From positions 1 to 35,097 of the forward strand of contig JAABVD010000009.1 in assembly GCA_014529615.1 (NCBI GenBank): a stretch of 35,097 nt of DNA, read 5' to 3'. The stretch is from Opitutia bacterium (GTDB lineage Bacteria; Verrucomicrobiota; Verrucomicrobiia; Opitutales; UBA2995). Both the position numbers and the translations under genes were made by a program. A model generated the notes under the pieces. The model was not told the origin of the DNA. It worked only from the letters and a program-made list of their open reading frames with translations, and did no database searches. Within the stretch, counting starts at the first letter, position 1, and the number at the start of each line of letters is the position of its first letter. This document shows positions 14,469 to 29,523 of the stretch, in pieces.

Positions 14469-14906
14469 TCACCTTGCATGGCTGGGGTCTGGTCCGGGGA
14501 TGCCATTGCGGAGGGCCGCCTTCATGGTGTTTAGAAACCTTTGGGGAGGTCGGATAGGTTTGGCTGATTTGTCGATAAAAGCGTGTGCGGATGATCCGGT
14601 GGCCAAAAGCGTCTCCCCGCGTCGCACCTCGTATTCGATGTAAAACCGAACTCCGGGCTGTTCCTTGACCATGCAGGCGACAGTGAGGCGGTCATCAAAA
14701 AAGGCGGGGCGGCGATAGCTCACTTTCACCTCGAGGACCGGTATGAAATAGCCCGATGCCTCAAGATCGCGATAAGCCATTCCGATCTGGTCGAGCATTT
14801 CGATACGCGCCTTTTCAAACCAGGTCACGTAATTGGCGTGGTGGGCAAATCCCATGGCATCGGTTTCGCTATAACGTACCCGAATCCTGCTTTCGGTGTG
14901 GATCAT
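14469..14906 (-). CDS. Acyl-CoA/acyl-ACP thioesterase, YbgC/FadM type (4HBT hot-dog)
   Basis: A 145-residue hot-dog-fold thioesterase. The catalytic segment YSETDAMGFAHHANYVTWFE (Asp16 and the following His residues) is typical of the YbgC/FadM/4-hydroxybenzoyl-CoA thioesterase group. It hydrolyses an acyl thioester; the acyl group is not predictable. It lies 28 bases downstream of a glycosyltransferase on the same strand, divergent from the ACP-dehydratase/ketosynthase/reductase operon. It therefore probably releases or edits acyl chains made by that locus (inference from context). Confidence 0.9.
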   Translation of the reverse strand: MIHTESRIRVRYSETDAMGFAHHANYVTWFEKARIEMLDQIGMAYRDLEASGYFIPVLEVKVSYRRPAFFDDRLTVACMVKEQPGVRFYIEYEVRRGETLLATGSSAHAFIDKSAKPIRPPQRFLNTMKAALRNGIPGPDPSHAR

Positions 14907-14934: not shown

Positions 14935-16125
14935 TCATGATTCCATGACCGCGTCTCGCAGGCCGAACAATCGATCGACCGAAGCGCCCCAACTCTTCTG
15001 GTTGACCCATTTCCGGCCAGTTTCTCCCAATTGCCGCCGCAACCGCCGATCGGAAATAAGGGCGGAAAAGGCGTCGGCCAGGGCCTTCCGGTTGCCGGGT
15101 TCTACCAACAGGCCCGTCCGCTTGTCTAGGACCGCCTCGGCCACGCCTCCGACCCGATGCGCCACTATGGGCAACCCGTGAGCGGACGCCTCCAGATAGA
15201 CCAATCCAAAACCTTCTACGCTCTTTTTGTAGTTTATGCTGGTCATGGCGAAGATGTCGGCCCGTTCATAAGCCCACCGGAGCCCATCGTCGTCCAGTTG
15301 GCCCCACATCTTGACCGGAAAATCGCACTTCTCGGCCAGCCGTCGCACCTCTCGCTCATAGGGATCGTGGCGGCTCTCCCCAACGATCCAGCACTCCACC
15401 GTCGCTCTCTCATCCCGGGGAAGGAGGTTCAGCGCCTGCAATATATTATTCTGGCCTTTGCGCGGGTGGAGGCGGCCGACGGTAAGGATGACCACCTTCC
15501 GATGGTCGACCCCTTTGGAGTGGTCGATTCCGACAAATCCTGCAGGCAGGGCGTTGGGGGTGAGCACCGTCTTGTGCTCGGCATCCGGAAACCGGGAAAC
15601 GAGCAAGCGGCGGGTAAAGGTGGATACAACGCCGATGCGTTCCGCCTTCTCAATCAACTTTTTCAGGAGCAGGCGATGGTGCAGTTTTCCGTGGTATTTC
15701 AATATCTCCGAACCGTGAAAGGTGAGGTAGAGTTTTCCGGGTAGGAAGGCTTTAAAGAATTGCAGGTAGAGCATGGCGGAAATCGGACCGGGTTCGGGCA
15801 GGTAAACGGTGGATTGGCGCAGATGCTTTCGCTTGGACATGATTTCCTTGGAGAGGGTAAAGAGGCAGGAAAGATTCTGACTGCCTTTCATGCCCAGCCT
15901 CCGGACCGTAAATGGCCACGGTTTCTCGGAATTATTCCCTCCGCCACCGGGAGCCCAGACTTCAACTTGAAACCCCGACTCGCTACTGGCCAGGGCCATT
16001 TCCTCGGCAAAAGTGGCAATCCCTCCCTTCCGGGGATGAAATTCGTGGGTCAATATCAGAAGGGGAAGCTTGCCATTCTCGTCATTTTGAGGGTAACGCG
16101 GATGCATACTTTCCCAATTTAGCAT
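14935..16125 (-). CDS. Glycosyltransferase family 4
   Basis: A 396-residue GT-B glycosyltransferase. The N-terminal half begins LPLLILTHEFHPRKGGIATFAEEMA, the glycine-rich acceptor-domain loop. The C-terminal half carries ILTVGRLHPRKGQ and the nucleotide-sugar motif EGFGLVYLEASAHGLPIVA, whose EGFGLVYLE part has the paired glutamates of GT4 (EX7E). The start could be the ATG at 16125 or 16107; the second has GGGAAAG just upstream. Only about 40 bases separate it from the divergent ACP-dehydratase gene, so both operons share one control region. Confidence 0.92.
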   Translation of the reverse strand: MLNWESMHPRYPQNDENGKLPLLILTHEFHPRKGGIATFAEEMALASSESGFQVEVWAPGGGGNNSEKPWPFTVRRLGMKGSQNLSCLFTLSKEIMSKRKHLRQSTVYLPEPGPISAMLYLQFFKAFLPGKLYLTFHGSEILKYHGKLHHRLLLKKLIEKAERIGVVSTFTRRLLVSRFPDAEHKTVLTPNALPAGFVGIDHSKGVDHRKVVILTVGRLHPRKGQNNILQALNLLPRDERATVECWIVGESRHDPYEREVRRLAEKCDFPVKMWGQLDDDGLRWAYERADIFAMTSINYKKSVEGFGLVYLEASAHGLPIVAHRVGGVAEAVLDKRTGLLVEPGNRKALADAFSALISDRRLRRQLGETGRKWVNQKSWGASVDRLFGLRDAVMES

Positions 16126-16165: not shown

Positions 16166-17038
16166 ATGAATTCTGGGACAGAAATAGACACTGTTGCGGT
16201 TAACCCGCTTACCCTGGAGGAGCGGGCTGATCTTGAAGAAAGTCTGAAGCGATGTAGTGAAGAAACTCGAAACGCCGTGTTTGAATTTCGGGAAACGGGT
16301 CGGGTTGGCCTTCTCCCCGGTATCGTCATCGGGTTGATCGAACGATTTTTGGAACCTGAGGTCCGTCCTCAATTGCGAAGCTCGGACGACTCGATTCGTC
16401 TGGTCGACGATTTGAGGATAGATTCTCTCACCATGATGGAGATCGTCGTCCTGGTGGAAGAGGCCCTGGACATATCGATCGATAACCAGGAGTTGCGCGA
16501 CCTGCGGACTTTGGACGATGTCAGTTGTTTTATCGATGCCAAGACGAAGGGGCTTCCCCTTCCCCAACGGGGGCGGCTATTCGGGATTGAAGCCATCGGC
16601 GCTGCCGTGCCGCACCGTCCCCCATTCCTCTTTTTGAATGAAGCGAGGGTGGAGAAGGACACCGCCATCGGCACTTACACCATTACCGGGGAGGAAGATT
16701 TCCTAGGCGGCCACTTTCCCGGTAATCCGATTATGCCGGCCAGCATCATGCTGGAGGCCCTGGGTCAGTTGGCCGTATTTCATTTGGTGACAACTCAGAA
16801 GAATGGAACGGGCTCGGTAGTCGATTCCAGCAAGGTTTTATTTACCTCGGTCGAGGCGGTCCGTTGCCAACGGATTTGCCTTCCGGGTGAGACCTTGACC
16901 CTCCGTATCAAACTCAAGCATATGCGCCATCCATTGGCCATGTTCGAGGGCAAGATAACGGTCAATGGAGAGAGTGCGGCCTGGGCCGAAGAAATCAGTT
17001 TGACGTTCGATTGGGTGGGTGTCCCGGGCGCTCACTGA
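16166..17038 (+). CDS. Acyl carrier protein fused to a FabZ-like dehydratase
   Basis: A 290-residue two-domain protein. Residues ~50-130 form an acyl carrier domain with DSL at 86-88 (Ser87 as the phosphopantetheine site) within DDLRIDSLTMMEIVVLVEEAL. Residues ~140-285 form a FabZ/FabA-type hot-dog dehydratase with PHRPPF (149-154), GGHFPGNPIMPASIMLEALGQ region (catalytic His183 and Glu197). It should carry the growing chain and remove water from the 3-hydroxyacyl intermediate. FabZ is about 140-150 residues alone, so the extra length is the ACP plus a polar N-terminus of about 50 residues. It leads the plus-strand operon. Confidence 0.92.
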   Translation: MNSGTEIDTVAVNPLTLEERADLEESLKRCSEETRNAVFEFRETGRVGLLPGIVIGLIERFLEPEVRPQLRSSDDSIRLVDDLRIDSLTMMEIVVLVEEALDISIDNQELRDLRTLDDVSCFIDAKTKGLPLPQRGRLFGIEAIGAAVPHRPPFLFLNEARVEKDTAIGTYTITGEEDFLGGHFPGNPIMPASIMLEALGQLAVFHLVTTQKNGTGSVVDSSKVLFTSVEAVRCQRICLPGETLTLRIKLKHMRHPLAMFEGKITVNGESAAWAEEISLTFDWVGVPGAH

Positions 17039-17112: not shown

Positions 17113-18372
17113 ATGGCGCGCGTATTTATAACAGGCTTGGGTTATATTTGCAGCATCGGGAATGATCAGGAAACTGTGGTGCATAACCTCCGTAACCTGA
17201 AACATGGCATGGCCTTGTTTCCCCCGGTGAACGTTCCGGATTCTCCGGTCAGGGTGGTCGCCCCGGTCAGGGAATTCGAGGTGGATTCCCTGGACCAGGA
17301 GGATTGGACCTATCCCGCCCGCTACAAAATCCGTCGGCAAACCATTCGCAGTTTTTCCCCTCATGTCCTCTACGCCTATTGCTCGTTATTACAGGCCATT
17401 GAGAATGCCGAGCTCAAGGAGGTGGATATCTCCAATAAGGAAACGGGCATTTATACGGCTTCAGGCGGGTCCATTCGCTTTATCTACCACCACCTGCGGC
17501 GAATGGAAAAGCGGGGTGTCATGCGTTGCAATCCCCTAAACATCATTTCCTCCATCGCCGGGACCCTTTCCTTCAATCTCGTCTCTCATTTCAAGATCCA
17601 AGGGGCCTCCACGGGGTTTGCCTCAGCTTGCGCCTCTTCGGGGCATGCCATGGGTTTTGCCTACGACGAGATTCAACGGGGTCGGCAGAAGCGGATGTTC
17701 GTGGTGGGGGCTGAGGATTGTAACTTTGAAAGCGTGGTGCCGTTTTGCGGCATGCGGGCTTTGAGCCTTTCCCTGGTCCCGGACCGGGCCTCGCGGCCCT
17801 TTGACCAAACCAGGGACGGATTTGTTTCCTCGGGCGGAGCAGTTACCGTGGTGCTGGAATCGGAGGAAGAGGTGGAGCGCCGCGGTGTTCCCGTCTATGG
17901 TGAAATGGTGGGTTGGGGACAAGCTTCGGACGGCCACAACGTAGCCATATCGCATCCGGAGGGCCGCGGACTGGAATCGGCCATGTTGCGGGCCTTGGGG
18001 GATGCCGGCATCCAACCCGCTCAGGTTGAGTATATCAACGCTCATGCTCCTTCCACTCCCATCGGCGATCGTTCCGAGGTCCAGGCCATTCGCCGTGTCT
18101 TCAACCCGGGGGAAACCAGGCCCATGATCAGCAGCACCAAGGCCTTGACGGGTCATGGGCTTTCCCTTTCCAGTGTGTTGGAAGCGGCCCTTTGCCTGAG
18201 CGCTCAAAGACAAGGATTCGTGCCTGGGTCCGCCCATATCCAGCAGCTCATGTCGGAAGCAGAGGGTTTGAATATCATTCGCCAAACCGTGAACGCTACA
18301 CCCACCTATATCTTGAGTAACAGTAGTGGTTTTGGAGGCGCCAATACCTCACTTGTTTTCAGGCATGTCTGA
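17113..18372 (+). CDS. Beta-ketoacyl-ACP synthase (KAS I/II family)
   Basis: A 419-residue thiolase-fold condensing enzyme. The catalytic Cys173 lies in ASACASSGHA, His311 in NAHAPSTPIGD and His348 in STKALTGHG, giving the Cys-His-His triad of decarboxylating ketosynthases. The usual NAHGTSTPxGD is altered to NAHAPSTP, and the glycine-rich GHxLGAAG is replaced by GHGLSLSS, so it is divergent from housekeeping FabF. It extends an acyl chain by two carbons from a malonyl unit on ACP. It sits after the ACP-dehydratase gene and overlaps the next gene by 8 bases. Confidence 0.92.
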   Translation: MARVFITGLGYICSIGNDQETVVHNLRNLKHGMALFPPVNVPDSPVRVVAPVREFEVDSLDQEDWTYPARYKIRRQTIRSFSPHVLYAYCSLLQAIENAELKEVDISNKETGIYTASGGSIRFIYHHLRRMEKRGVMRCNPLNIISSIAGTLSFNLVSHFKIQGASTGFASACASSGHAMGFAYDEIQRGRQKRMFVVGAEDCNFESVVPFCGMRALSLSLVPDRASRPFDQTRDGFVSSGGAVTVVLESEEEVERRGVPVYGEMVGWGQASDGHNVAISHPEGRGLESAMLRALGDAGIQPAQVEYINAHAPSTPIGDRSEVQAIRRVFNPGETRPMISSTKALTGHGLSLSSVLEAALCLSAQRQGFVPGSAHIQQLMSEAEGLNIIRQTVNATPTYILSNSSGFGGANTSLVFRHV

Positions 18373-19177
18373 ATTGAGCTCTCGCTACGCCCGGGCGTTG
18401 GTGACGGGGGCTCGTTCCGGGTTGGGGAAGGCCTTCGCCCTCAGGTTGATGGCGGAGGGGATCGAGGTGTGGGGATCTTCCAGAATGCCGGATGCTTTTG
18501 AGAACCTCCCGGGAATTAATCCCGTCCTGGTCGATTTGAACCGGGAGAAGGAGTTATCCAAGTGGTACCAAGACCTGGATAGACGGGCCGGTGGTTTCGA
18601 CCTCCTGGTCAACAATGCCGGATTTGGGGCCTTTGGGAAGTTTGGTGATTTCCGGGATGAGGATATCCAAAGCCAGTTGCGTGTTCTCCTGACCTCCCCC
18701 ATGCAGTTGGCCCTGGGAGCGATAAAGTGCATGAGGGCCCGGAAGCGGGGTTGCATCGTCAACATATCTTCGATGGCGGGAAGTTTGTGGATTCCATTTT
18801 TCAGCAGTTACAACGCGGGCAAAGCCGGATTATCCGCTTTTAGCCAGAGCCTGATGCTGGAGGCCCCCGCGACCCCCCCCTGGATCATCGATTTTTGCCC
18901 GGGAGATTTAGCGACTCCCTTCAATCGATCCACCGTGCGGCGGGGTGAGCCATCGGGAAGGTTGCAAAGGGTCTGGCGTCGGATTGAACAAAATACCGAA
19001 GCTGCCCTTCCTCCGCAACGGGCAGCAGAAGATCTGATGGGCGGGTTGAAGCGGTTTCGGCATTGCACCTTGCACAGTGGATCCTTCTTGCAAAGGATAA
19101 TGGCCCGATTGGGGGCGCGACTTGTCCCGACTGGATGCAAGCGCACGGCTCTCCGTCGCTACTTCGATCTCCATTGA
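18365..19177 (+). CDS. Short-chain dehydrogenase, probable 3-ketoacyl reductase
   Basis: A 270-residue SDR with TGARSGLG (14-21), NNAG (83-86), Ser near 135 and the YNAGK pair (Tyr149, Lys153). The start is the ATG at 18365, overlapping the ketosynthase stop by 8 bases. Placed directly after an ACP-dehydratase and a ketosynthase, it is the best candidate for the ketoreductase of that cycle. The C-terminal ~70 residues (after FCPGDLATPFN) are basic and longer than in FabG, so a different reduction cannot be excluded. Confidence 0.87.
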   Translation: MSELSSRYARALVTGARSGLGKAFALRLMAEGIEVWGSSRMPDAFENLPGINPVLVDLNREKELSKWYQDLDRRAGGFDLLVNNAGFGAFGKFGDFRDEDIQSQLRVLLTSPMQLALGAIKCMRARKRGCIVNISSMAGSLWIPFFSSYNAGKAGLSAFSQSLMLEAPATPPWIIDFCPGDLATPFNRSTVRRGEPSGRLQRVWRRIEQNTEAALPPQRAAEDLMGGLKRFRHCTLHSGSFLQRIMARLGARLVPTGCKRTALRRYFDLH

Positions 19178-19200: not shown

Positions 19201-20352
19201 ATGGTATTGACCTCCGCCACGGGTGGGGGGCATGACGCCCGCGCCTCGGCCTTTGCCGCCTGGTGTCGCAAGCTCTACCGGGACGGGGTGGTCCTGAGAA
19301 TCGTTCGGCCCTTGGAAAGCTCCACCCGGATTACCCGTTTTGGCGTGGGACTCTACAATGTTATTCAGAAGTGGGCTCCCCTGTTACACCATCCCTATTG
19401 GTGGTTCGTGGAAGGGCTCGGTTATCTGCAGCGGAACAGGGTGAAATTGGGCAAACAATATTACGAATCACTCCTCAGGGAGTTTGCCCCGCACCTGATT
19501 TTGAGCGTGCATGATTTTCTCAATCGGGGTTATTTTCAAACCGCCAAATCCATTCTGGGCCACCGGGTGAGGTGCTCGACTTACTGTGGCGAATTTTCCG
19601 GTGGATTCGGCTACAGTAGAAATTGGGTGGAGCCAACCGTCGATTTATTCTTTTCCCGAACTTCCATGGCCCAGGACTATGCCGTGCAGATGGGAATCTC
19701 TCCTCAAAAGTGTCGCGTCCGGGGTCATCTCATGCACCCCAAGGTCTACGACCAGATTCTGGACGATGGGGCACGCCGGAATCTTCTGGTCGACCATCTC
19801 GGGCTATCCCCGGGCAAATTTACCCTCTTGCTGGCCGCAAGTGGGATGGGCGCCAACAACCACTTGAGGATTTTGCAAATCCTCAAGCGATACGCCAGTC
19901 GTGTGCAGGCAATTGCGGTATGTGGAAGAGATGGAAATACCGAGGAAAAAATTCTGCAATGGAAGGAGCGAAACCCCGGTTTTCGGGTCCATGTGGAAGG
20001 ATATTCCCAGCGCATGCATCACCTGATTCAGGTCAGCGATGCAGTGGTCGGTCGTGGAGCCACCACTTGTGCGGAGGCTTTGTTTTTTAAGGTTCCCGTC
20101 ATCTTCAACGGCATCGGCGGCCTGATGCCCCAGGAGCGGTTGACCTGCAACTATTTTTGCCGGGCCGGGGCCGCGGTTAGGATGTCCAGCCTCAAGGACC
20201 TCGATGGTCATCTGGGATTGTGGCTCACCCATGAATCTGCCTACGCCCGCCTGCGGGAACGTTGCCGGGAAATTGCCGTGGTGGAAGATCCGACCCTCCT
20301 GATCCGGGAGTTGCATGGCCTGGCCATAGAAGCGATAGAGGAAGGGCCATGA
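19201..20352 (+). CDS. MGDG-synthase-like glycosyltransferase (GT28/COG0707 type)
   Basis: About 383 residues from the ATG at 19201. The N-terminus has VLTSATGGGHDARASAFAAW, the glycine-rich acceptor motif of the MGDG-synthase/MurG-like group, and the C-terminus has GRGATTCAEALFFKVPVIF and PQERLTCNYF for the sugar nucleotide. Such enzymes put a hexose on a lipid such as diacylglycerol. An upstream TTG at 19192 with GAAGGA ten bases before it is a possible alternative start; the frame is open further upstream into the preceding SDR gene. It is the only GT here of clearly lipid-linked type. Confidence 0.85.
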   Translation: MVLTSATGGGHDARASAFAAWCRKLYRDGVVLRIVRPLESSTRITRFGVGLYNVIQKWAPLLHHPYWWFVEGLGYLQRNRVKLGKQYYESLLREFAPHLILSVHDFLNRGYFQTAKSILGHRVRCSTYCGEFSGGFGYSRNWVEPTVDLFFSRTSMAQDYAVQMGISPQKCRVRGHLMHPKVYDQILDDGARRNLLVDHLGLSPGKFTLLLAASGMGANNHLRILQILKRYASRVQAIAVCGRDGNTEEKILQWKERNPGFRVHVEGYSQRMHHLIQVSDAVVGRGATTCAEALFFKVPVIFNGIGGLMPQERLTCNYFCRAGAAVRMSSLKDLDGHLGLWLTHESAYARLRERCREIAVVEDPTLLIRELHGLAIEAIEEGP

Positions 20353-21593
20353 AGTTGAGGGTTCTCTACATTTGCGCCACCTTTCCCAAACAAAGTGAAC
20401 AGTTCATCATGCGGGAGGTCGATGCCCTGTCCGAGCAGCCGGTCGACCTGGAGATCGTCACCTTGTGGGGAGGGGACTCCTTTTATAAGGGGTTGCCCGT
20501 AAGGCGGTTCTCAAAATTGAAGTTGTTCAGGTTGTGCTGGGTTTTGCCCCTGGCCTTTTTCCTGAAGCCCCGCGTAATGTCGGGGAACCTGAAATGGTTC
20601 CTGGCCCGGCGACCGCCTTCCCTTCTCAATTTTTTGGAAAACCTGCTCGGGTACGGGTTCGCTCTCGCCCAATGGTTCGAAGTGGAGAAAAACAAACCGG
20701 ATCTGATCCACGGGACCTGGGCCACTTCACCCGCCTCGGCCGCCTTACTTTTGAGCATATTGACGGGGATTCCCTTCTCCATGGGAGCGCACGCCTACGA
20801 TGTTTTTGAAAATGGGGGAGACTGGCACCTGGCTGAAAAACTCCGCCGGACCTCCCTGCTGCATACTACCAGCCAGAACACCTGCCAAGCCTTGTTGGGG
20901 AGAGGCTCTGATCCAAAAAAGACCCGTGTGATACTATCGGGGTTGATGGGGTTTCCTTCCCTCAATTCATTGCGGTCCCCCCGAAATCCGATTCGGGTGC
21001 TTTATGTGGGTCGTCTGGTGGAGAAAAAGGGTTTGTTTTACCAGATTGACGTGCTCCAATCCCTGAAAGGGTCCGGGGTATCCTTCCGGGCCCGCATAGT
21101 GGGCAGCGGGGAGTTGGATGGGAGATTGAAGGGTTACCGCGACCGGTCCGGCCTTCAGGATGAACTGGAGTTTTTGGGAGAACAGACCTTTGCCGCCGTG
21201 CAAGAGCAATTTGATTGGGCCGACCTGTTCCTTTACACGGGAACAGTTAGCGCGAGAGGGGACCGTGACGGGTTGCCCAATGTAATAGGGGAGGCCATGG
21301 CCCATGGGGCGGTAGTCTTGACCACCGCGGTGGGCGCTACCACCGAAGCCGTTGAACACGGGGTCACGGGCTTGGTATTGCCGCCCGACGACACCCAGGC
21401 CTGGGTCGACCAGATGCTCCGATTACAACGGGACGATGCCCTCATGGAAACCCTCCGAGGAAACGCCCGCGCCTGGGTGGAAGAGCATTTTGATGCACGA
21501 AGAAACTCCCGGGAACTTTACCTGGCGCTTCTGAAGGTAGCTGAAAAGAATGAGAGCCCCAATCCTGAAGCATGCCACTCTATTTCGATGTAA
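20349..21593 (+). CDS. Glycosyltransferase family 4
   Basis: A 414-residue GT-B enzyme starting at the ATG at 20349, which overlaps the previous stop as ATGA. The C-terminal domain carries RVLYVGRLVEKKGLFYQ and DGLPNVIGEAMAHGAVVL, the donor-binding motif with its conserved glutamate, then GATTEAVEHGVTGLVLPPDD. It resembles enzymes of the capsule/exopolysaccharide type. Acceptor and sugar are unknown. Confidence 0.92.
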   Translation: MKLRVLYICATFPKQSEQFIMREVDALSEQPVDLEIVTLWGGDSFYKGLPVRRFSKLKLFRLCWVLPLAFFLKPRVMSGNLKWFLARRPPSLLNFLENLLGYGFALAQWFEVEKNKPDLIHGTWATSPASAALLLSILTGIPFSMGAHAYDVFENGGDWHLAEKLRRTSLLHTTSQNTCQALLGRGSDPKKTRVILSGLMGFPSLNSLRSPRNPIRVLYVGRLVEKKGLFYQIDVLQSLKGSGVSFRARIVGSGELDGRLKGYRDRSGLQDELEFLGEQTFAAVQEQFDWADLFLYTGTVSARGDRDGLPNVIGEAMAHGAVVLTTAVGATTEAVEHGVTGLVLPPDDTQAWVDQMLRLQRDDALMETLRGNARAWVEEHFDARRNSRELYLALLKVAEKNESPNPEACHSISM

Positions 21594-22636
21594 CCCTTGC
21601 CGGGCGCCACAGGCATTTATCGGGTCTGCAACGGGTTTCCGACCAGTTGAGAAGGGCCCTTCGGAAAAAGATTGGGGATGAGTTGGTCCCGGTGCGGTGG
21701 AGGGCACGGGGGCGAGGGTTTTGCCGCGGGGACACCCGTGCCCCGGTCACACTCACCCGCGAGGATCACTTCATCAGCCCCGAAGTCTTTTCTCCGGGAG
21801 AAAGGCCGGGGTTTTTCCATGGGTTGGAGGAAAGCGGCTGTTGCAGCGCGATCATATATCACGATGCCATTCCCCTGAAGTGGCCGGAAATAACGTGGCC
21901 CGAAAGTGTGGCCAGGCATCCATCCTATATGAAGGCGCTGGCGCGCTTTCATCACATTTTCGCGGTTTCCCAGAGCAGCGCCGGGGAATTGGAGATTTAT
22001 TTGGATTGGCTGGATATAGCAGCCTCTCCACCCATTTCAGTTTTGCCCTTGGGGGCTGATTTTGCCGATCTCTCTGCCAGGAACTGGAGGCATTCCCCGG
22101 GCAACCCCCCCCTCATCCTTTCCGTCGGCATTCTCGAACCCCGCAAAAACCAGAGCCAGGTACTGGCCCTGGCCAAGCGCCTCTGGGATGGAGGATTGGA
22201 ATTTGAACTCCATTTCTGTGGCCGGGTAAATCCCCATTTTGGCAAACCGGTGGCTGCGGAAATAAAGCGGGCCCAAAGGCTGGGCTATTCCGTTTTCCAC
22301 CACTCCCGCCAAAGTGATGAATTGCTTTTGAATTGTTATGCCAAAGCCCATTTCAGCGTTCTCAATTCCAAAGCCGAGGGATTTGGCCTGCCTTTGCTGG
22401 AATCCCTCTGGCTGGGAGTTCCCTGCCTTTGTTCCGACCTGCCCTCCCATGCGGCCATGGCGCGGAGGGGTGGATGCCGGATCGTATCAAGCGAGGAAGA
22501 GATGGAAGAATCCTGGATGACCTGGCTTTGCCAGGAAACCGAATTGGAAGCCGCAACCCGGGAAGCCAGGGAGAGGACGGTGCCCCTCTGGGCAGACACC
22601 GCGGAATCCGTTCTCAGGTGGATGCGAGAAAAATGA
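21572..22636 (+). CDS. Glycosyltransferase family 4
   Basis: A 354-residue GT4 enzyme overlapping the previous gene by 22 bases. Motifs: LSVGILEPRKNQ, then NSKAEGFGLPLLESLWLGVPCL, the EX7E donor site. The N-terminal region is short (about 170 residues) and starts with TLAGRHRHLSGLQRVSDQL, an acceptor-domain loop. Tight overlap on both sides implies one transcript with the other transferases. Confidence 0.92.
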   Translation: MPLYFDVTLAGRHRHLSGLQRVSDQLRRALRKKIGDELVPVRWRARGRGFCRGDTRAPVTLTREDHFISPEVFSPGERPGFFHGLEESGCCSAIIYHDAIPLKWPEITWPESVARHPSYMKALARFHHIFAVSQSSAGELEIYLDWLDIAASPPISVLPLGADFADLSARNWRHSPGNPPLILSVGILEPRKNQSQVLALAKRLWDGGLEFELHFCGRVNPHFGKPVAAEIKRAQRLGYSVFHHSRQSDELLLNCYAKAHFSVLNSKAEGFGLPLLESLWLGVPCLCSDLPSHAAMARRGGCRIVSSEEEMEESWMTWLCQETELEAATREARERTVPLWADTAESVLRWMREK

Positions 22637-23850
22637 GTGCTTTGCCTTGCCTGGTTTTTTCCAATTCCTTTCCCCCGGATCATGCGGGAGGGTACGAGCT
22701 TGGCGCCGGAAACCTGGTGGACGCCTTGCGGCGATTCTGCGGGTGGAAAATTCGGGTGTTTTCCTCCGTGCGCAAGCAAACACCGCCGGGTATTTTGAGT
22801 CCGCCGCTCACCGGTTTTTTCCCTGGCCGGCTGGGGCCGGCCTATCGGCGGCGCCTCGTCAAAAGGGAACTGGTTGCCCGACACGAAGGGATTTGCGCGG
22901 CCATCGACCGGGAAGCGGAACGGGCGGAGGTAATCCTCGTATTCAACCCGAGGCGGTTGATATACCCCCAATGGGTCCGCCTGCTCGATTCCCCCACCCC
23001 GGTGGTATTTTTTGTCTCGGATTTCTGGCCTCAGGATCCCCTTGGGGCTGACCTGTTTTATGCGGGTTTGGCCAAGAGAAGGCATTCCCTGCGCCCCCGG
23101 GACCCGGCATTGGACGTGATTTATAATCCTTTCCTGCAAGAGGAAGCCATCTTTTCCCGAGCCAAAGGTGTGATTTTCTGCAGCCGGTTTCTTCAACAAA
23201 CGCACCGCGAGACCTTCGACGGATTGGAACATCAGACGGTGATTCATTGGGGGACAAATCCGGAGCGTTTCCCGAAATCGGCCAAAGATGGTGAACACTT
23301 GAAAGTGTTTGGTTTTTGTGGCCGCGCCGTTCCGGAAAAGGGCCTGGATAGGGCTTTGCAGGCATTTTCCGAGCTGTTGCGGCGTGATGCGCGCTTGAAA
23401 CTGTTGGTTGCATCGGATCTGACCACTTCCCACGGCCGCCTCCTTCGGCGCCAAATTTCCCGAAACCGCAGGCTTGAACACTCGGTTGAACTTTTGGGAC
23501 AGGTGCCCCATGAGGAGATGCACGAGAAATTCTTTCGTCGCATAGGTTGGCTCATGTTTCCCAGTGTCTGGGAGGAGCCTTTCGCCTCGACCGTGGTGGA
23601 AGCCATGGCTTCGGGGGTGGTGGTCATCGGCTCCTTCACCGGCGGAACCCCCGAGATTTTGCATGAGGCTTGCGGTTATCCCTATGATCCAAGCGACTCC
23701 GCCGCTCTGTTGGAGGCTTGCCGAAAAGCATTAAACAGAGCCGACCACCATGGGATTTTGGCGGACCGGGCCCATCAACGGATTTTGGGGCAGTTTAATT
23801 TGCCGGTCATGGCCGAAAAATTGGACAAATTTGTCCGCGGCCTCCTTTAA
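22633..23850 (+). CDS. Glycosyltransferase family 4
   Basis: A 405-residue GT4 enzyme from the ATG at 22633, which overlaps the previous stop as ATGA; the frame is open upstream but there it only shadows the preceding gene. It has the N-terminal SFPPDHAGGYELGAGNLVDAL, then FCGRAVPEKGLDRALQAF and EEPFASTVVEAMASGVVVIGS, the donor site. The last four codons are unaffected by the element that begins in its stop codon. It closes the plus-strand operon. Confidence 0.92.
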   Translation: MSALPCLVFSNSFPPDHAGGYELGAGNLVDALRRFCGWKIRVFSSVRKQTPPGILSPPLTGFFPGRLGPAYRRRLVKRELVARHEGICAAIDREAERAEVILVFNPRRLIYPQWVRLLDSPTPVVFFVSDFWPQDPLGADLFYAGLAKRRHSLRPRDPALDVIYNPFLQEEAIFSRAKGVIFCSRFLQQTHRETFDGLEHQTVIHWGTNPERFPKSAKDGEHLKVFGFCGRAVPEKGLDRALQAFSELLRRDARLKLLVASDLTTSHGRLLRRQISRNRRLEHSVELLGQVPHEEMHEKFFRRIGWLMFPSVWEEPFASTVVEAMASGVVVIGSFTGGTPEILHEACGYPYDPSDSAALLEACRKALNRADHHGILADRAHQRILGQFNLPVMAEKLDKFVRGLL

Positions 23851-24834: not shown

Positions 24835-27800
24835 TCAACCCCTTACCCTGCTCGGAACCCTCTTCACTTCATCCGTGAGAAGTGCGGCCCCCTTTTCCCA
24901 TACCTCGTCGCGGGTTATTTCTCCGCTCCGGATCTTGGCCAGAATTTGTTTCTGGGTGCCGTAGTCGATATTCTTCTGCCCGGCGCGCGATTGCATCATG
25001 CGCCAAGCCTTGCGGCGTTCCACCACGAAGAGCACCATCTGCCGGGAAAGGCTCATGTAGACCAGATTTTTTCTGGCGTCTTCCACCAGGATGTAGACCC
25101 CGAAGTCCGGCACGTAGGCGCGGGCGTCGCTCCTCAGATAGCGTTTATTGACCACATCCTTTTGCTCCACGCACCAGATCAGGTTATCCAGGAAGATGAG
25201 GTCCTTGCTCTGTTCTTCCGTTATGCGTTTGAGGTGGCGCCGGAAGCGGCCCTCGGTGGCGGCCCAATGGGCCGTGGTGAAATTGTATCGCTGCTTGTTG
25301 GACTTGTACCGGGCTATCATCCAATCCCGGTTGGGATTTCGGTTGCCTTTGATACTGAAGGATTCCTCGTAGGTTTCTCCCAGATCGGGATTGAAGACAA
25401 ACTCGGGAAGGCCGCGGCTATCCCGAATCCATACGGCCTGGCGGGTAGCCATGTCGTCACCCACTCCATGTTCCGGCTGACAGGTGGTGAAGCAGAGATG
25501 AAAAGAAGTTCCCCTGTATTCCAGGCCTTCCAGGATGGAACTGTACAATTTGGGAACGTCCGCCATGGAAACCTGTGAAACGTAGGGTGAACCGTGGCCA
25601 CTGACAAAGGATTCCGCCACGTTCTTCATTTCGACCAGTTTTCCCTGGGAGGCTGCCCCCAGTTGGTTCATGTCGAACCCGCCCGTCATGGGGGAGGAGT
25701 CGGAATTTTGACCACCCGTGTTGGAATAGACCTGGGTGTCCAGCATGAGCATTTTCACATTGGGGCGGTTTTGCAGGATGACCTTGGATACGTTCTGGTA
25801 GCCTATGTCCCCCATGGCCCCGTCGCCTCCCACACACCAGACTTTGGGCATTTCCCTGATTTCCCGATCGGTCATCAGAGTGTCGCTGAAGTGAGTGTAG
25901 TCAAAGTGGTCCACCTCGGTGAGCCGGTCGTCCTCCAACAAATGATCGGTGAGACGTTCGGGAATAACCGAGGTTCGAGCGTTATCCAGAATAAAGCTTT
26001 CCCCCATGAGCCAGGAAATGGTGGCTCCGTCCTGGAACAGAGAATTCATCCAGGGGTAGGGATGTGGATTATTGGGAGGGGTGGAACCGTAGACGGTATT
26101 GCAACCGGTGTGCGCCCCCATTGCCATGACGGACATGCCGTTGTCCAGACCTCCGTCAAGAGTCTGGATGTGCTTGTGGTTGAAGGCGTCCTGGCGCATT
26201 ACCGCCACTATGGCGTCGACCGTCTCCTTATCCGAAATTTCCCCATGCCGGGCGAGCCGCGCATCGGTATCTTCATCGCTGTCACCACCCAGCCCCATCA
26301 AAACATGGGCCGTGGTCCGCTTGAAAAATTGATAGGCTTCTTCGTCTTCAGCCTTCAGGGCGGCAAGCCGCTCTTCCCCTTCCTTTTCAAGTCGGCACGC
26401 CTTGTTCATCAGGCGGTCCGATTTGGAGTGGTAGAGGGGTCGCATGTAAGCTTCCGTGACGGAGGCCAAGGCGTGGAGCACCGATTTTTCTCCACAACCG
26501 GCGCAGGCGCCATCTCCGGATGCCAGGGCCTTGTAGGCGCCGGTCATCATCATCAAATTCCGCAGGGTGGCGGGACGGGACTCCTTGGGGGCGTCCACGT
26601 TGTAAAAACCCAGGTATTTTTCGTTGGTTTCGGGCAGGATATCGAGGAAAGCCGAGGCCGTCAGGACACGGGCATTGTTGACTTCGGTGTCCGGTTGCAT
26701 GCGCAAGGCATCGTGATCTCCACATTCGGTGACGCATTCACCGCAACCCTTGCAGAGGTCGGATACAAAAATGGAAAAGATCCCCCCTTCACCGGGAGAC
26801 TTGCGTTCCCTGGTGCCGAAGATGGCGTTGACTTTGTTGTAGGCCAGGGGGAGTTGCTCTACTATGGCCTGGAATTCCCCCTTCGATGGCTCGGAAATGT
26901 CGGCAATTCGGTTCACCTCCCGGGTCAGGATGGAAGGCAGGGGTGTCTTCTCCTTGGCTTTGATGGAGTTCCGCATGATTTCCCGGGCCGCCGCGTCAAT
27001 GCCTGGAATGGCTTCGATCATTTTGGCGCGGTCTTCCTCGTTGGAAACATAATTGTTGAATGCGGTTTCCAGGATGGTTCCCAGTTCCTGGGTGGTGGTC
27101 GGAAGTGCGGTATCGGGGCAGGCCGTTATACAGGCCATGCATTGGGTGCAATTCTCGGCTATGAAGACCGGTGTTTCCCGGCGCGCTCCGTACTTGGATG
27201 CGGTAGCGCCCGTTGCGGCCGCCATCACCCCGACTGAGGCCAAGGGGGAGGCCGGTTGGTTATAGCCCAGGCCCGAACGGTATTCCGCGTCGAAGGTTTC
27301 CGTTTTGTACATCGGAATACGCTCCTCCTGTCGGGCCGGTTTCGGGGTGGAGCATCCGAGCGGACCACAATCCCCGGAGGAATCGACGTTGGGGATGAGG
27401 ACCTCCCCGCGCATCTGGGAACGGTCGGGAGCCCCCAAATCGCCGTAGGTCACCTCCATCAGGCGCTCCCCTCCCTGGGTCATCACCTGCATGTTGGATT
27501 CTACCACGGCTTGCCCGAAACGACCGAACTTCTTCACATATTGGGCCCGCACGATTTGGCGGTAATGTTCTTCCGTAATGTCAAAATCGGCCAGCAGAGA
27601 GGAAAGTTTAAAGAAGGCTCCGAGGAAGGAATTGCCCTGCATGCGGAGCTGCAGTTCCGGCCGGGATGTAGCTCGTTTGGCAATATCGAAGCCGGGCAAT
27701 ATGAAGACGCGGATCTTTTTTTCGATTATGGTCTGGCGGGCCCGTGGAGGGATACGCTCCCAGGCGGTGGCCGGATCTTCATCCGATTCCCAGACGAATA

Positions 27801-29523
27801 TCCCGCCCTCCACCATTCCTTCCAGAGGATCGATGTGGGTAAAAGCTTTGGGGTCGCAGCAAAGGACGACATTGACATGGCGCAGGTCGCAGTTGACCCG
27901 GGCTCGGTCGGGGCTGGCCACGAGGAAAAATTCCGTCGGCGCGCCCTTCTTTTCCGAACCGTATTTGGGATTGGCCGAAATGTGGATGGTTTCCTCCGGG
28001 AGACCGTCTTCGTTTACGGTACCTTTCTTCTTCGACACCACATCGCCGATTTCACTGATAATTTCCGACAGGTTTTTGCCGGTGGTTATCATGCCCCAAC
28101 CCCCGATGGAGTGGAGGCGCACCGCAATGGATCCTTCCGGCAGCAGGGAGGGGGTTTCTTTGGAAACGACCCGGTAGGGATGGTCGATGCCCAAGGTGAA
28201 AAACGACTCGCCGTCGTCCCTGTGTTTTCCATCCTGGCGGGTGATTCTGCCAGTGGCATATTGCCAAGCCCCTAAAATGTCCTCCGGGCGGAAATCCCGC
28301 GAACCCAATCCATATATTCCGGAGAAAACGCGCGGCATTTTCTCCAAAATGATGTCTCCGAGGTGTTGATGGGCAAATTCGTCCTGGTTTTCCAGCGCTT
28401 TGGCCAGGGCTGTGCGGACGTCCCGGGCCAATGGGTTATCCCCGGCCATGGGCTCGTCGGTTCTCTCCAGGATTATGACGTTCTTTTTCCCGGCCAGGGC
28501 CTTGACCACGGCCGCCTCGGGGAAGGGCCGAATGACGTTGACGTGGATGACGCCCATTTCTTCCCCGTATTCCTCCTTCACGTAGTCGATGGCCGCCTCG
28601 ATATTCTCGGCGGAAGAGCCCAATGTGACGAATACGGTGTCCGCTTCGGCGGTGTTGTATTCGCTGACAAATCCGTAATAGCGTCCGGTCAAACGGGCGA
28701 ATTCGTCGTAAGCCTCCTGCAGGAAATCGAGGATGGGTTCAACGAAGTTGTTGCGGCGGGCCGCCACCCCGTTCATGTAGTGTTCCTGGTTTTGCACCGG
28801 CCCGATGAGGGCGGGATTCTGAAGGTCGATTACCTTGGGCACACGGCGACGCGTAGGACCGAAAAGTATCTTCTGCGACTCGGTCGGGCACTCGATAATA
28901 TCGTCGGGGGCTCCGAGGAACTCCCTCAGCAGTTCCGATTCGTGCTTGAAGAAAGATCTTTCCAGGTGGGTGGTGAGGAATCCGTCCTGGATATTGATCC
29001 CGGGTGTGAGTGAGTTCTCCGTGACCTTTCTTAAAATGAGAGCCTGGTCTGCCGCCTGCTGGGCATCCTTGGCGAACAACATGGTCCACCCCGTATCGAG
29101 GGCGGCATAGATGTCGTCGTGACCGCAGTGAACATTGAGGGCGTGTTTGGTCAAGGCCCGGGCTCCCACTTCCAGTATCATGGTGGAAAGTTTTCCCGGG
29201 GCGTGGTAAAATTGCTCGATGCCGTAAACAATGCCTTGGCCGGAAGTGAAATTGACCGTTCTTTTGCCGGTTATGGAGTAGGCAATCGCTCCCCCCTGGG
29301 CGGCGTGTTCCCCTTCGCATTCGATGGCAATCTTGGGCCGGCCGAAAACGTTCAGCATCCCCTCGGCGTAGGATTGCTGGTACATTTCTCCCTGTTCGGT
29401 GCTAGGGGTGATGGGATAGAAAATTCCCCCATCGGTAATACGGGCTTCCGTGAAGTAACTCACCAACTGGTTTCCGTTGGTGGTAACTCTGATTCCGGGA
29501 TATTTCGGTTTCGAAGCGATCAT
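24835..29523 (-). CDS. nifJ: Pyruvate:ferredoxin (flavodoxin) oxidoreductase, extended single-chain form
   Basis: A 1562-residue enzyme converting pyruvate and CoA to acetyl-CoA and CO2, with electrons passed to ferredoxin or flavodoxin. Domains in order: pyruvate-binding (start to ~230), domain II (to ~420), the gamma/EKR region, a two-cluster ferredoxin domain with CTQCMACITACP near residue 792 and CKGCGECVTECG near 924, and the TPP domain with ACAGCGEKS near 1006, GGDGAMGDIGYQN near 1231 and DTQVYSNTGGQNSDSS. Single-chain enzymes of this family are usually about 1170-1200 residues, so this is some 370 longer. The extra is spread over spacers, including ~120 residues between the two cluster motifs, and a C-terminal ~220-residue region. 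The substrate could be another 2-oxoacid. Confidence 0.93.
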   Translation of the reverse strand: MIASKPKYPGIRVTTNGNQLVSYFTEARITDGGIFYPITPSTEQGEMYQQSYAEGMLNVFGRPKIAIECEGEHAAQGGAIAYSITGKRTVNFTSGQGIVYGIEQFYHAPGKLSTMILEVGARALTKHALNVHCGHDDIYAALDTGWTMLFAKDAQQAADQALILRKVTENSLTPGINIQDGFLTTHLERSFFKHESELLREFLGAPDDIIECPTESQKILFGPTRRRVPKVIDLQNPALIGPVQNQEHYMNGVAARRNNFVEPILDFLQEAYDEFARLTGRYYGFVSEYNTAEADTVFVTLGSSAENIEAAIDYVKEEYGEEMGVIHVNVIRPFPEAAVVKALAGKKNVIILERTDEPMAGDNPLARDVRTALAKALENQDEFAHQHLGDIILEKMPRVFSGIYGLGSRDFRPEDILGAWQYATGRITRQDGKHRDDGESFFTLGIDHPYRVVSKETPSLLPEGSIAVRLHSIGGWGMITTGKNLSEIISEIGDVVSKKKGTVNEDGLPEETIHISANPKYGSEKKGAPTEFFLVASPDRARVNCDLRHVNVVLCCDPKAFTHIDPLEGMVEGGIFVWESDEDPATAWERIPPRARQTIIEKKIRVFILPGFDIAKRATSRPELQLRMQGNSFLGAFFKLSSLLADFDITEEHYRQIVRAQYVKKFGRFGQAVVESNMQVMTQGGERLMEVTYGDLGAPDRSQMRGEVLIPNVDSSGDCGPLGCSTPKPARQEERIPMYKTETFDAEYRSGLGYNQPASPLASVGVMAAATGATASKYGARRETPVFIAENCTQCMACITACPDTALPTTTQELGTILETAFNNYVSNEEDRAKMIEAIPGIDAAAREIMRNSIKAKEKTPLPSILTREVNRIADISEPSKGEFQAIVEQLPLAYNKVNAIFGTRERKSPGEGGIFSIFVSDLCKGCGECVTECGDHDALRMQPDTEVNNARVLTASAFLDILPETNEKYLGFYNVDAPKESRPATLRNLMMMTGAYKALASGDGACAGCGEKSVLHALASVTEAYMRPLYHSKSDRLMNKACRLEKEGEERLAALKAEDEEAYQFFKRTTAHVLMGLGGDSDEDTDARLARHGEISDKETVDAIVAVMRQDAFNHKHIQTLDGGLDNGMSVMAMGAHTGCNTVYGSTPPNNPHPYPWMNSLFQDGATISWLMGESFILDNARTSVIPERLTDHLLEDDRLTEVDHFDYTHFSDTLMTDREIREMPKVWCVGGDGAMGDIGYQNVSKVILQNRPNVKMLMLDTQVYSNTGGQNSDSSPMTGGFDMNQLGAASQGKLVEMKNVAESFVSGHGSPYVSQVSMADVPKLYSSILEGLEYRGTSFHLCFTTCQPEHGVGDDMATRQAVWIRDSRGLPEFVFNPDLGETYEESFSIKGNRNPNRDWMIARYKSNKQRYNFTTAHWAATEGRFRRHLKRITEEQSKDLIFLDNLIWCVEQKDVVNKRYLRSDARAYVPDFGVYILVEDARKNLVYMSLSRQMVLFVVERRKAWRMMQSRAGQKNIDYGTQKQILAKIRSGEITRDEVWEKGAALLTDEVKRVPSRVRG

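Follow-up and report, generated by a model that had tools for sequence, protein, structure and literature searches.

Which task could call for an acyl carrier protein (ACP) and a dehydratase in a single polypeptide chain? The question is raised by a gene of an Opitutia bacterium (order Opitutales), found in a 35,097-nucleotide stretch of assembly GCA_014529615.1 (contig JAABVD010000009.1) that was analyzed as a whole and is here called the window; the source genome comprises 3.4 Mb in 387 contigs. Bacterial sphingolipids are appearing in many uncultured phyla, and the supply of their chains outside the Proteobacteria and Bacteroidota is largely open. We conclude that the fusion is real, conserved, and little described, and that it is probably a specialized ACP and fatty-acid-synthesis module serving a serine palmitoyltransferase (SPT)-like pathway.

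A carrier and a dehydratase in one chain

The open reading frame (16166..17038, + strand, as are all features within it) begins with ATG and encodes a protein of 290 residues, P0001, that was characterized with Pfam, NCBIfam, alignment, and AlphaFold. A helical N-terminal extension (residues 17–46; 16214..16303), evident in the homologue alignment and the AlphaFold model, places about 30 conserved residues ahead of the ACP proper, and stand-alone homologues have them too. The acyl carrier domain (residues 47–127; 16304..16546) is followed by a linker (residues 128–136; 16547..16573), which the AlphaFold model places after ACP helix IV and ahead of the first strand of the hotdog, and by a FabZ-type hotdog dehydratase domain (residues 137–282; 16574..17011). 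The sequence-only reading had proposed an ACP and a complete FabZ site in one chain, and Pfam, NCBIfam, a PDB sequence search, and AlphaFold all bear this out. Pfam recovers a PP-binding domain at residues 76–120 (E = 3.9e-5; 24.2 bits, above the gathering cut-off of 20.8), within the stretch of residues 50–130 where such a fold had been expected, and a FabA-like domain at 162–272 (E = 1.1e-18). NCBIfam matches an acyl carrier protein at 79–126 (E = 6.5e-11, below the equivalog cut-off) and FabZ at 141–275 (E = 5.6e-24). As the FabZ equivalog cut-offs are missed (84.6 vs 113 and 82.1 vs 155.15 bits), the dehydratase domain is best described as FabZ-like and not as the housekeeping equivalog.

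In the PDB sequence search, residues 67–127 match ACPs and residues 132–270 match FabZ structures, the dehydratase half being closer to FabZ than to FabA (2.5e-14 vs 2.5e-5). The AlphaFold model (mean pLDDT 79.7, from an alignment of 24 sequences) has ACP helices at 47–59, 87–101, 107–111, and 116–127, two further N-terminal helices, and a central hotdog helix at 192–210, and a Foldseek search with it returned FabZ structures (best E = 8.5e-14, TM 0.88 by target). With FabZ (PDB 1z6b and 6n3p), P0001 shares the hotdog fold, the His/Glu pair, and about 30% identity, but it differs in its fused ACP and in carrying PAS, where PG is usual, ahead of the helix that bears the catalytic Glu. The predicted phosphopantetheine site, Ser87 of a DSL motif (codon 16424..16426), and the catalytic residues His183 in GHFPG (16712..16714) and Glu197 in LEALGQ (16754..16756) are all intact; D86, S87, L88, H183, and E197 are invariant in an alignment of 18 fused homologues from relatives. 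A wrong-strand or chance reading frame was ruled out, as the family is kept at 46–95% identity with invariant catalytic residues. Also ruled out was a trans-acting polyketide synthase (PKS) module, the window having neither an acyltransferase nor further PKS domains.

The operon and the history of the fusion

Downstream of the fusion on the + strand are genes for a FabB/FabF-like β-ketoacyl-ACP synthase (KS; 17113..18372) with C173, H311, and H348 intact (Pfam, NCBIfam, alignment, and PDB search); a short-chain dehydrogenase/reductase (SDR; 18365..19177), a candidate ketoreductase or 3-ketosphinganine reductase whose start overlaps the KS stop; a GT28-like glycosyltransferase (19201..20352); and three GT4 glycosyltransferases, GT4b (20349..21593, joined to GT28 by an ATGA overlap), GT4c (21572..22636, from Pfam and neighborhood comparison), and GT4d (22633..23850). 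From KS through GT4d the genes follow one another closely, each start either overlapping the preceding stop or lying a short distance beyond it. On the opposite (−) strand are a divergent GT4 glycosyltransferase, GT4a (14935..16125; Pfam), found in the same position in the majority of Opitutaceae loci, and, conserved alongside it, a YbgC/4HBT thioesterase-like protein (14469..14906; Pfam and NCBIfam). Among solved structures the window KS is nearest to FabB (E = 8.5e-73). A lipid acceptor is suggested for GT28 by its nearest NCBIfam model, diglucosyl diacylglycerol synthase (E = 2.5e-20). Beyond the glycosyltransferases, the window also holds a 1562-aa frame (24835–29523, − strand) that reads as a pyruvate:ferredoxin/flavodoxin oxidoreductase and is found nearby in G001 and G003 as well.

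The order ACP-dehydratase, KS, SDR, GT28, GT4b, GT4c, with the divergent GT4a and YbgC, repeats across Opitutaceae MAGs; among the best 80 relatives listed, 78 loci are long enough to show whether KS follows, as it does in 76. In several other families only ACP-dehydratase and GT4b, the steadiest glycosyltransferase neighbor, are still adjacent and KS is elsewhere in the genome; that KS had been lost in such cases was ruled out by its recovery in G028, G009, G010, G024, and G017, and a search of the genome contigs of G008 found no KS of this type. Stand-alone family ACPs in three genomes of the Opitutaceae family (f13) directly adjoin large genes resembling TonB-dependent receptors (L044:9975-13904, L131:8275-12129, and L132:4923-8729; the domain search covered L044).

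A scan of genome contigs identified 277 places encoding relatives of P0001, of which the best 80 all match across both domains and all belong to the Verrucomicrobiota; a same-genus relative (L046) is 95% identical across the fusion. The sequence-only reading had called such a fusion uncommon outside PUFA synthases and modular PKSs, which does not hold within the Opitutales, where it is standard: the fusion is common to most of the order and to three genomes of the class outside it (G042, G111, and G287). The literature covered yielded no account of an ACP-FabZ fusion from the Verrucomicrobiota, most subscription journals lying outside that coverage.

Split forms occur in G017, G022, G029, genus g21 (G026, G258, and G193), and G322. 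In G193 (L151:7247-8077) both halves lie in one frame that is interrupted at the linker by a single stop, with a new start codon almost directly after it, while in G322 (L130:8500-9500) ACP and dehydratase are in different frames, with a frameshift near the linker that may be an assembly error. Since the class outgroups are fused, we infer an ancient fusion, kept as one orthologous family by the Opitutales and a few sister orders and split repeatedly since; transfer or parallel fusion would also be compatible with the sequences. On the tree, fused and split states must have interchanged four times or more, the in-frame stop of G193 included, so the family can do without the tether. The earlier suggestion that it would channel the 3-hydroxyacyl group directly to dehydration is plausible, and the natural fused and split forms are material for testing what the tether does.

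Association with an SPT-like enzyme

The partner enzyme, an α-oxoamine synthase and hence termed AOS here, is an aminotransferase-fold protein encoded beside the operon in six of the first loci examined (cluster c8). Its best NCBIfam model is SPT, both in G020 (371 bits, with 328 for the next best model and 326 for BioF) and in the window genome (G000:C347:1657-2859; 381 bits, with 354 for the next model and 350 for BioF). The AOS proteins score 336–381 bits, short of the curated SPT cut-off of 640 and of all other curated SPT cut-offs. Among solved structures the closest is the Sphingobacterium SPT (E = 5e-85), ahead of the best BioF/Kbl-type enzyme (3e-68) and a cysteate enzyme (2e-59). The Schiff-base lysine K249, the stacking H143, the carboxylate-binding R372, and N57 are invariant in seven sequences, a set shared with other AOS enzymes; the roles of these residues, and the rule that Lys281 is diagnostic of SulA, are taken from published work (PMC9304779). 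At the position of that lysine, 30 residues after K249 in an alignment to the SPT 8guh, all seven sequences have alanine (A279), which argues that AOS is SPT-like rather than SulA-like. We call it SPT-like and no more, as BioF or Kbl activity would also be compatible with its sequence. In the family of the window genome (L138, which is G000:C347, with L139 and L140), AOS adjoins genes that read like type II secretion or pilus assembly.

The occurrence of AOS was compared with that of ACP-dehydratase in 388 Verrucomicrobiota genomes, 49 with ACP-dehydratase (44 fused, 5 split) and 339 without it, AOS being called at E ≤ 1e-130 (weakest accepted match 3e-167). AOS is present in 44 of the 49 and in 1 of the 339 (Fisher 4e-51, with genomes treated as independent), and within the order in 41/46 vs 1/17 (p = 8e-10, by the same test and with the same treatment of genomes as independent). 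The three genomes from the class outside the order, G042, G111, and G287, carry ACP-dehydratase, KS, and AOS together and two genomes of genus g36 lack both ACP-dehydratase and AOS, in agreement with the association. The same distribution holds for the dedicated KS subfamily, apart from a small number of additional genomes. The genes are often linked as well, and in many Opitutaceae AOS closes the cluster. Of the 80 listed loci, 58 extend 7 kb or more beyond the fusion, and 30 of these have AOS immediately after GT4c, on the opposite strand; of the 43 genomes with both AOS and the fusion, 23 have them no more than 15 kb apart. The window genome has its AOS on another contig, outside the operon. 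The recurrent KS, SDR, and glycosyltransferase operon and the strong association with AOS form a context absent from the sequence-only reading.

The link between ACP-dehydratase and AOS is strong without being exclusive: ACP, dehydratase, and KS are retained in four lineages that lack AOS (G022, G029, genus g21, and G027), and the module can therefore serve something else; G187 has AOS, KS, SDR, and a family ACP without the fused dehydratase. A trend for split genes to go with loss of AOS is suggested by g21, G022, and G029, but is unsupported (four independent pairs, two concordant and none opposed, p = 0.5), and has exceptions in G017 and G322, which are split with AOS, and G027, which is fused without it.

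Also in the window genome are an AcpP (C144:36766-37002) and, beside it, a FabF (C144:37079). Because these lie elsewhere in the genome, the ACP-dehydratase operon is an accessory module, and a housekeeping role in fatty-acid synthesis was ruled out. A separate FabZ is present in most other fusion-bearing relatives; in the window genome (G000) and G001 none was found apart from a match to an LpxC-FabZ-like long reading frame. In G000 this other FabZ-like domain (C38:10521-10835, L002) lies inside a 450-codon frame, an LpxC-FabZ-like candidate.

A proposed role and its alternatives

As the fusion is almost always found in genomes with a sphingolipid-starting enzyme, it probably readies fatty chains destined for a sugar-bearing membrane lipid of an unusual kind. 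We lean, with a little more confidence than doubt, toward a role in which the dedicated ACP and a private elongation module supply an acyl thioester to the SPT-like AOS for a glycosylated sphingoid-type lipid. In the reactions, order of steps, and product that we infer, the ACP domain, once phosphopantetheinylated, would bear the growing chain, the adjacent KS would lengthen it by two carbons, the β-keto group would be reduced by an SDR (possibly the one in the operon), and the tethered FabZ domain would dehydrate the chain. The finished acyl-ACP would then pass to AOS, which would use it to start a long-chain base of sphingoid type, to be decorated by the glycosyltransferases of the operon. 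A published survey put the number of Verrucomicrobiota genomes with SPT-like proteins at 22 (PMC11334938), and no mention of sphingolipids was found in the description of Lacunisphaera. If the proposal is true, a fused ACP-dehydratase with its own KS, accompanying an SPT-like enzyme in most of an order, would represent a new way of supplying chains and would provide a genetic marker and enzymes that can be tested.

A more specific version of this role, which would follow from the chemistry but which we consider quite unlikely, would have the fused dehydratase make a trans-2-enoyl-ACP that AOS condenses with an amino acid, giving a 4,5-unsaturated base by an oxygen-independent route. The C2=C3 double bond of the acyl group would become C4=C5 of the long-chain base, and the dedicated carrier and tethered dehydratase would shield the enoyl group from the housekeeping enoyl reductase. 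In eukaryotes, the 4,5 double bond of sphingosine is introduced by an oxygen-dependent desaturase.

Other products can be imagined for the same enzymes. An operon with KS, ketoreductase, dehydratase, and ACP but no enoyl reductase could make a polyene chain that is then glycosylated, much as in aryl polyenes, and relatives do carry paralogous pairs of a divergent family ACP and a family KS (L154, L157, L158, L159, and L160). Those in G202, G027, and G010 (ACP 32–34% and KS 46–49% identical to those of the window) lie in polyene-like clusters: the G202 cluster (L154) has AMP-ligase and LolA-like genes and the G010 cluster (L160) a FabA-like protein, a second ACP, a KS-like protein, an acyltransferase, and a halogenase-like protein. 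A polyene is nonetheless unlikely as the product of the window cluster, given that neither it nor its orthologues include an AMP-ligase, chain-length factor, exporter, or LolA-like gene, that its KS and the polyene paralogue fall into different score ranges (E about 1e-200 vs 1e-150 to 1e-177), and that the association is with AOS. Similarly doubtful, and on the whole improbable, is a role in lipopolysaccharide as a specialized acyl module comparable to the rhizobial acpXL-fabZXL-fabFXL cluster. Such a module would explain the AOS-less genomes, and it would fit the gene order of ACP, FabZ, KS, and dehydrogenase seen in the acpXL cluster (PMC11901934), the heptosyltransferase-like GT9 neighbors in G028, G020, and G011, and the Kdo-transferase-like gene after KS in G022; but the operon has no LpxXL-type acyltransferase and ends in glycosyltransferases, and the GT28/GT4 content and the AOS association would be left unexplained.

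Two further possibilities would tie the fusion to ordinary lipids. A dehydratase, perhaps also an isomerase, paired with KS in the manner of FabA/FabB could provide unsaturated chains for phospholipids, as the nearness of the KS to FabB and the adjacency of the dehydratase might suggest. We hold this to be very unlikely: the dehydratase is nearer to FabZ than to FabA, FabA/FabB require no ACP of their own, and the linkage to glycosyltransferases and AOS would be unexplained. Least credible, and highly improbable, is an ordinary fatty-acid-synthesis dehydratase fused by chance to a carrier, with no special product. The fusion could do housekeeping dehydration in G000 and G001, whose only other FabZ is the LpxC-FabZ-like match, but most other fusion-bearing relatives also have a separate FabZ, complete relatives lack the fusion gene, and the dedicated KS and AOS co-occur with it.

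The favored role, acyl supply to AOS for a glycosylated sphingoid-type lipid, can be set beside several known systems. With aryl polyene clusters the operon shares the KS/ACP/dehydratase logic, and its relatives hold a paralogous ACP-KS pair in such clusters, but it lacks their AMP-ligase, chain-length factor, exporter, and LolA-like genes. The acpXL-fabZXL-fabF2XL-fabF1XL-adh cluster of the Rhizobiaceae, responsible for lipid A's very long chain (PMC11901934), has the same order of dedicated ACP, FabZ, KS, and dehydrogenase; there, however, ACP and FabZ are separate genes, KS genes number two, a lipid A acyltransferase stands at the end, and neither AOS nor a glycosyltransferase operon is present. 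The use of acyl-ACP as a donor has a precedent in SulA of Alistipes, a cysteate acyl-ACP transferase (PMC9304779); AOS aligns with bacterial SPT (PDB 8guh and 28eh) and keeps the Asn, His, Lys, and Arg, but has Ala where SulA has Lys281. In Rhodobacteria, SPT uses a specialized ACP, AcpR, which is a stand-alone protein loaded by the acyl-ACP synthetase AasR (PMC9386255); no AasR was recognized in the window operon or the repeated neighborhoods. Both AcpR and the carrier described here are dedicated ACPs, apart from the housekeeping ACP and associated with an SPT-type enzyme, but the latter shares its chain with a dehydratase and is encoded in the company of a KS and a reductase.
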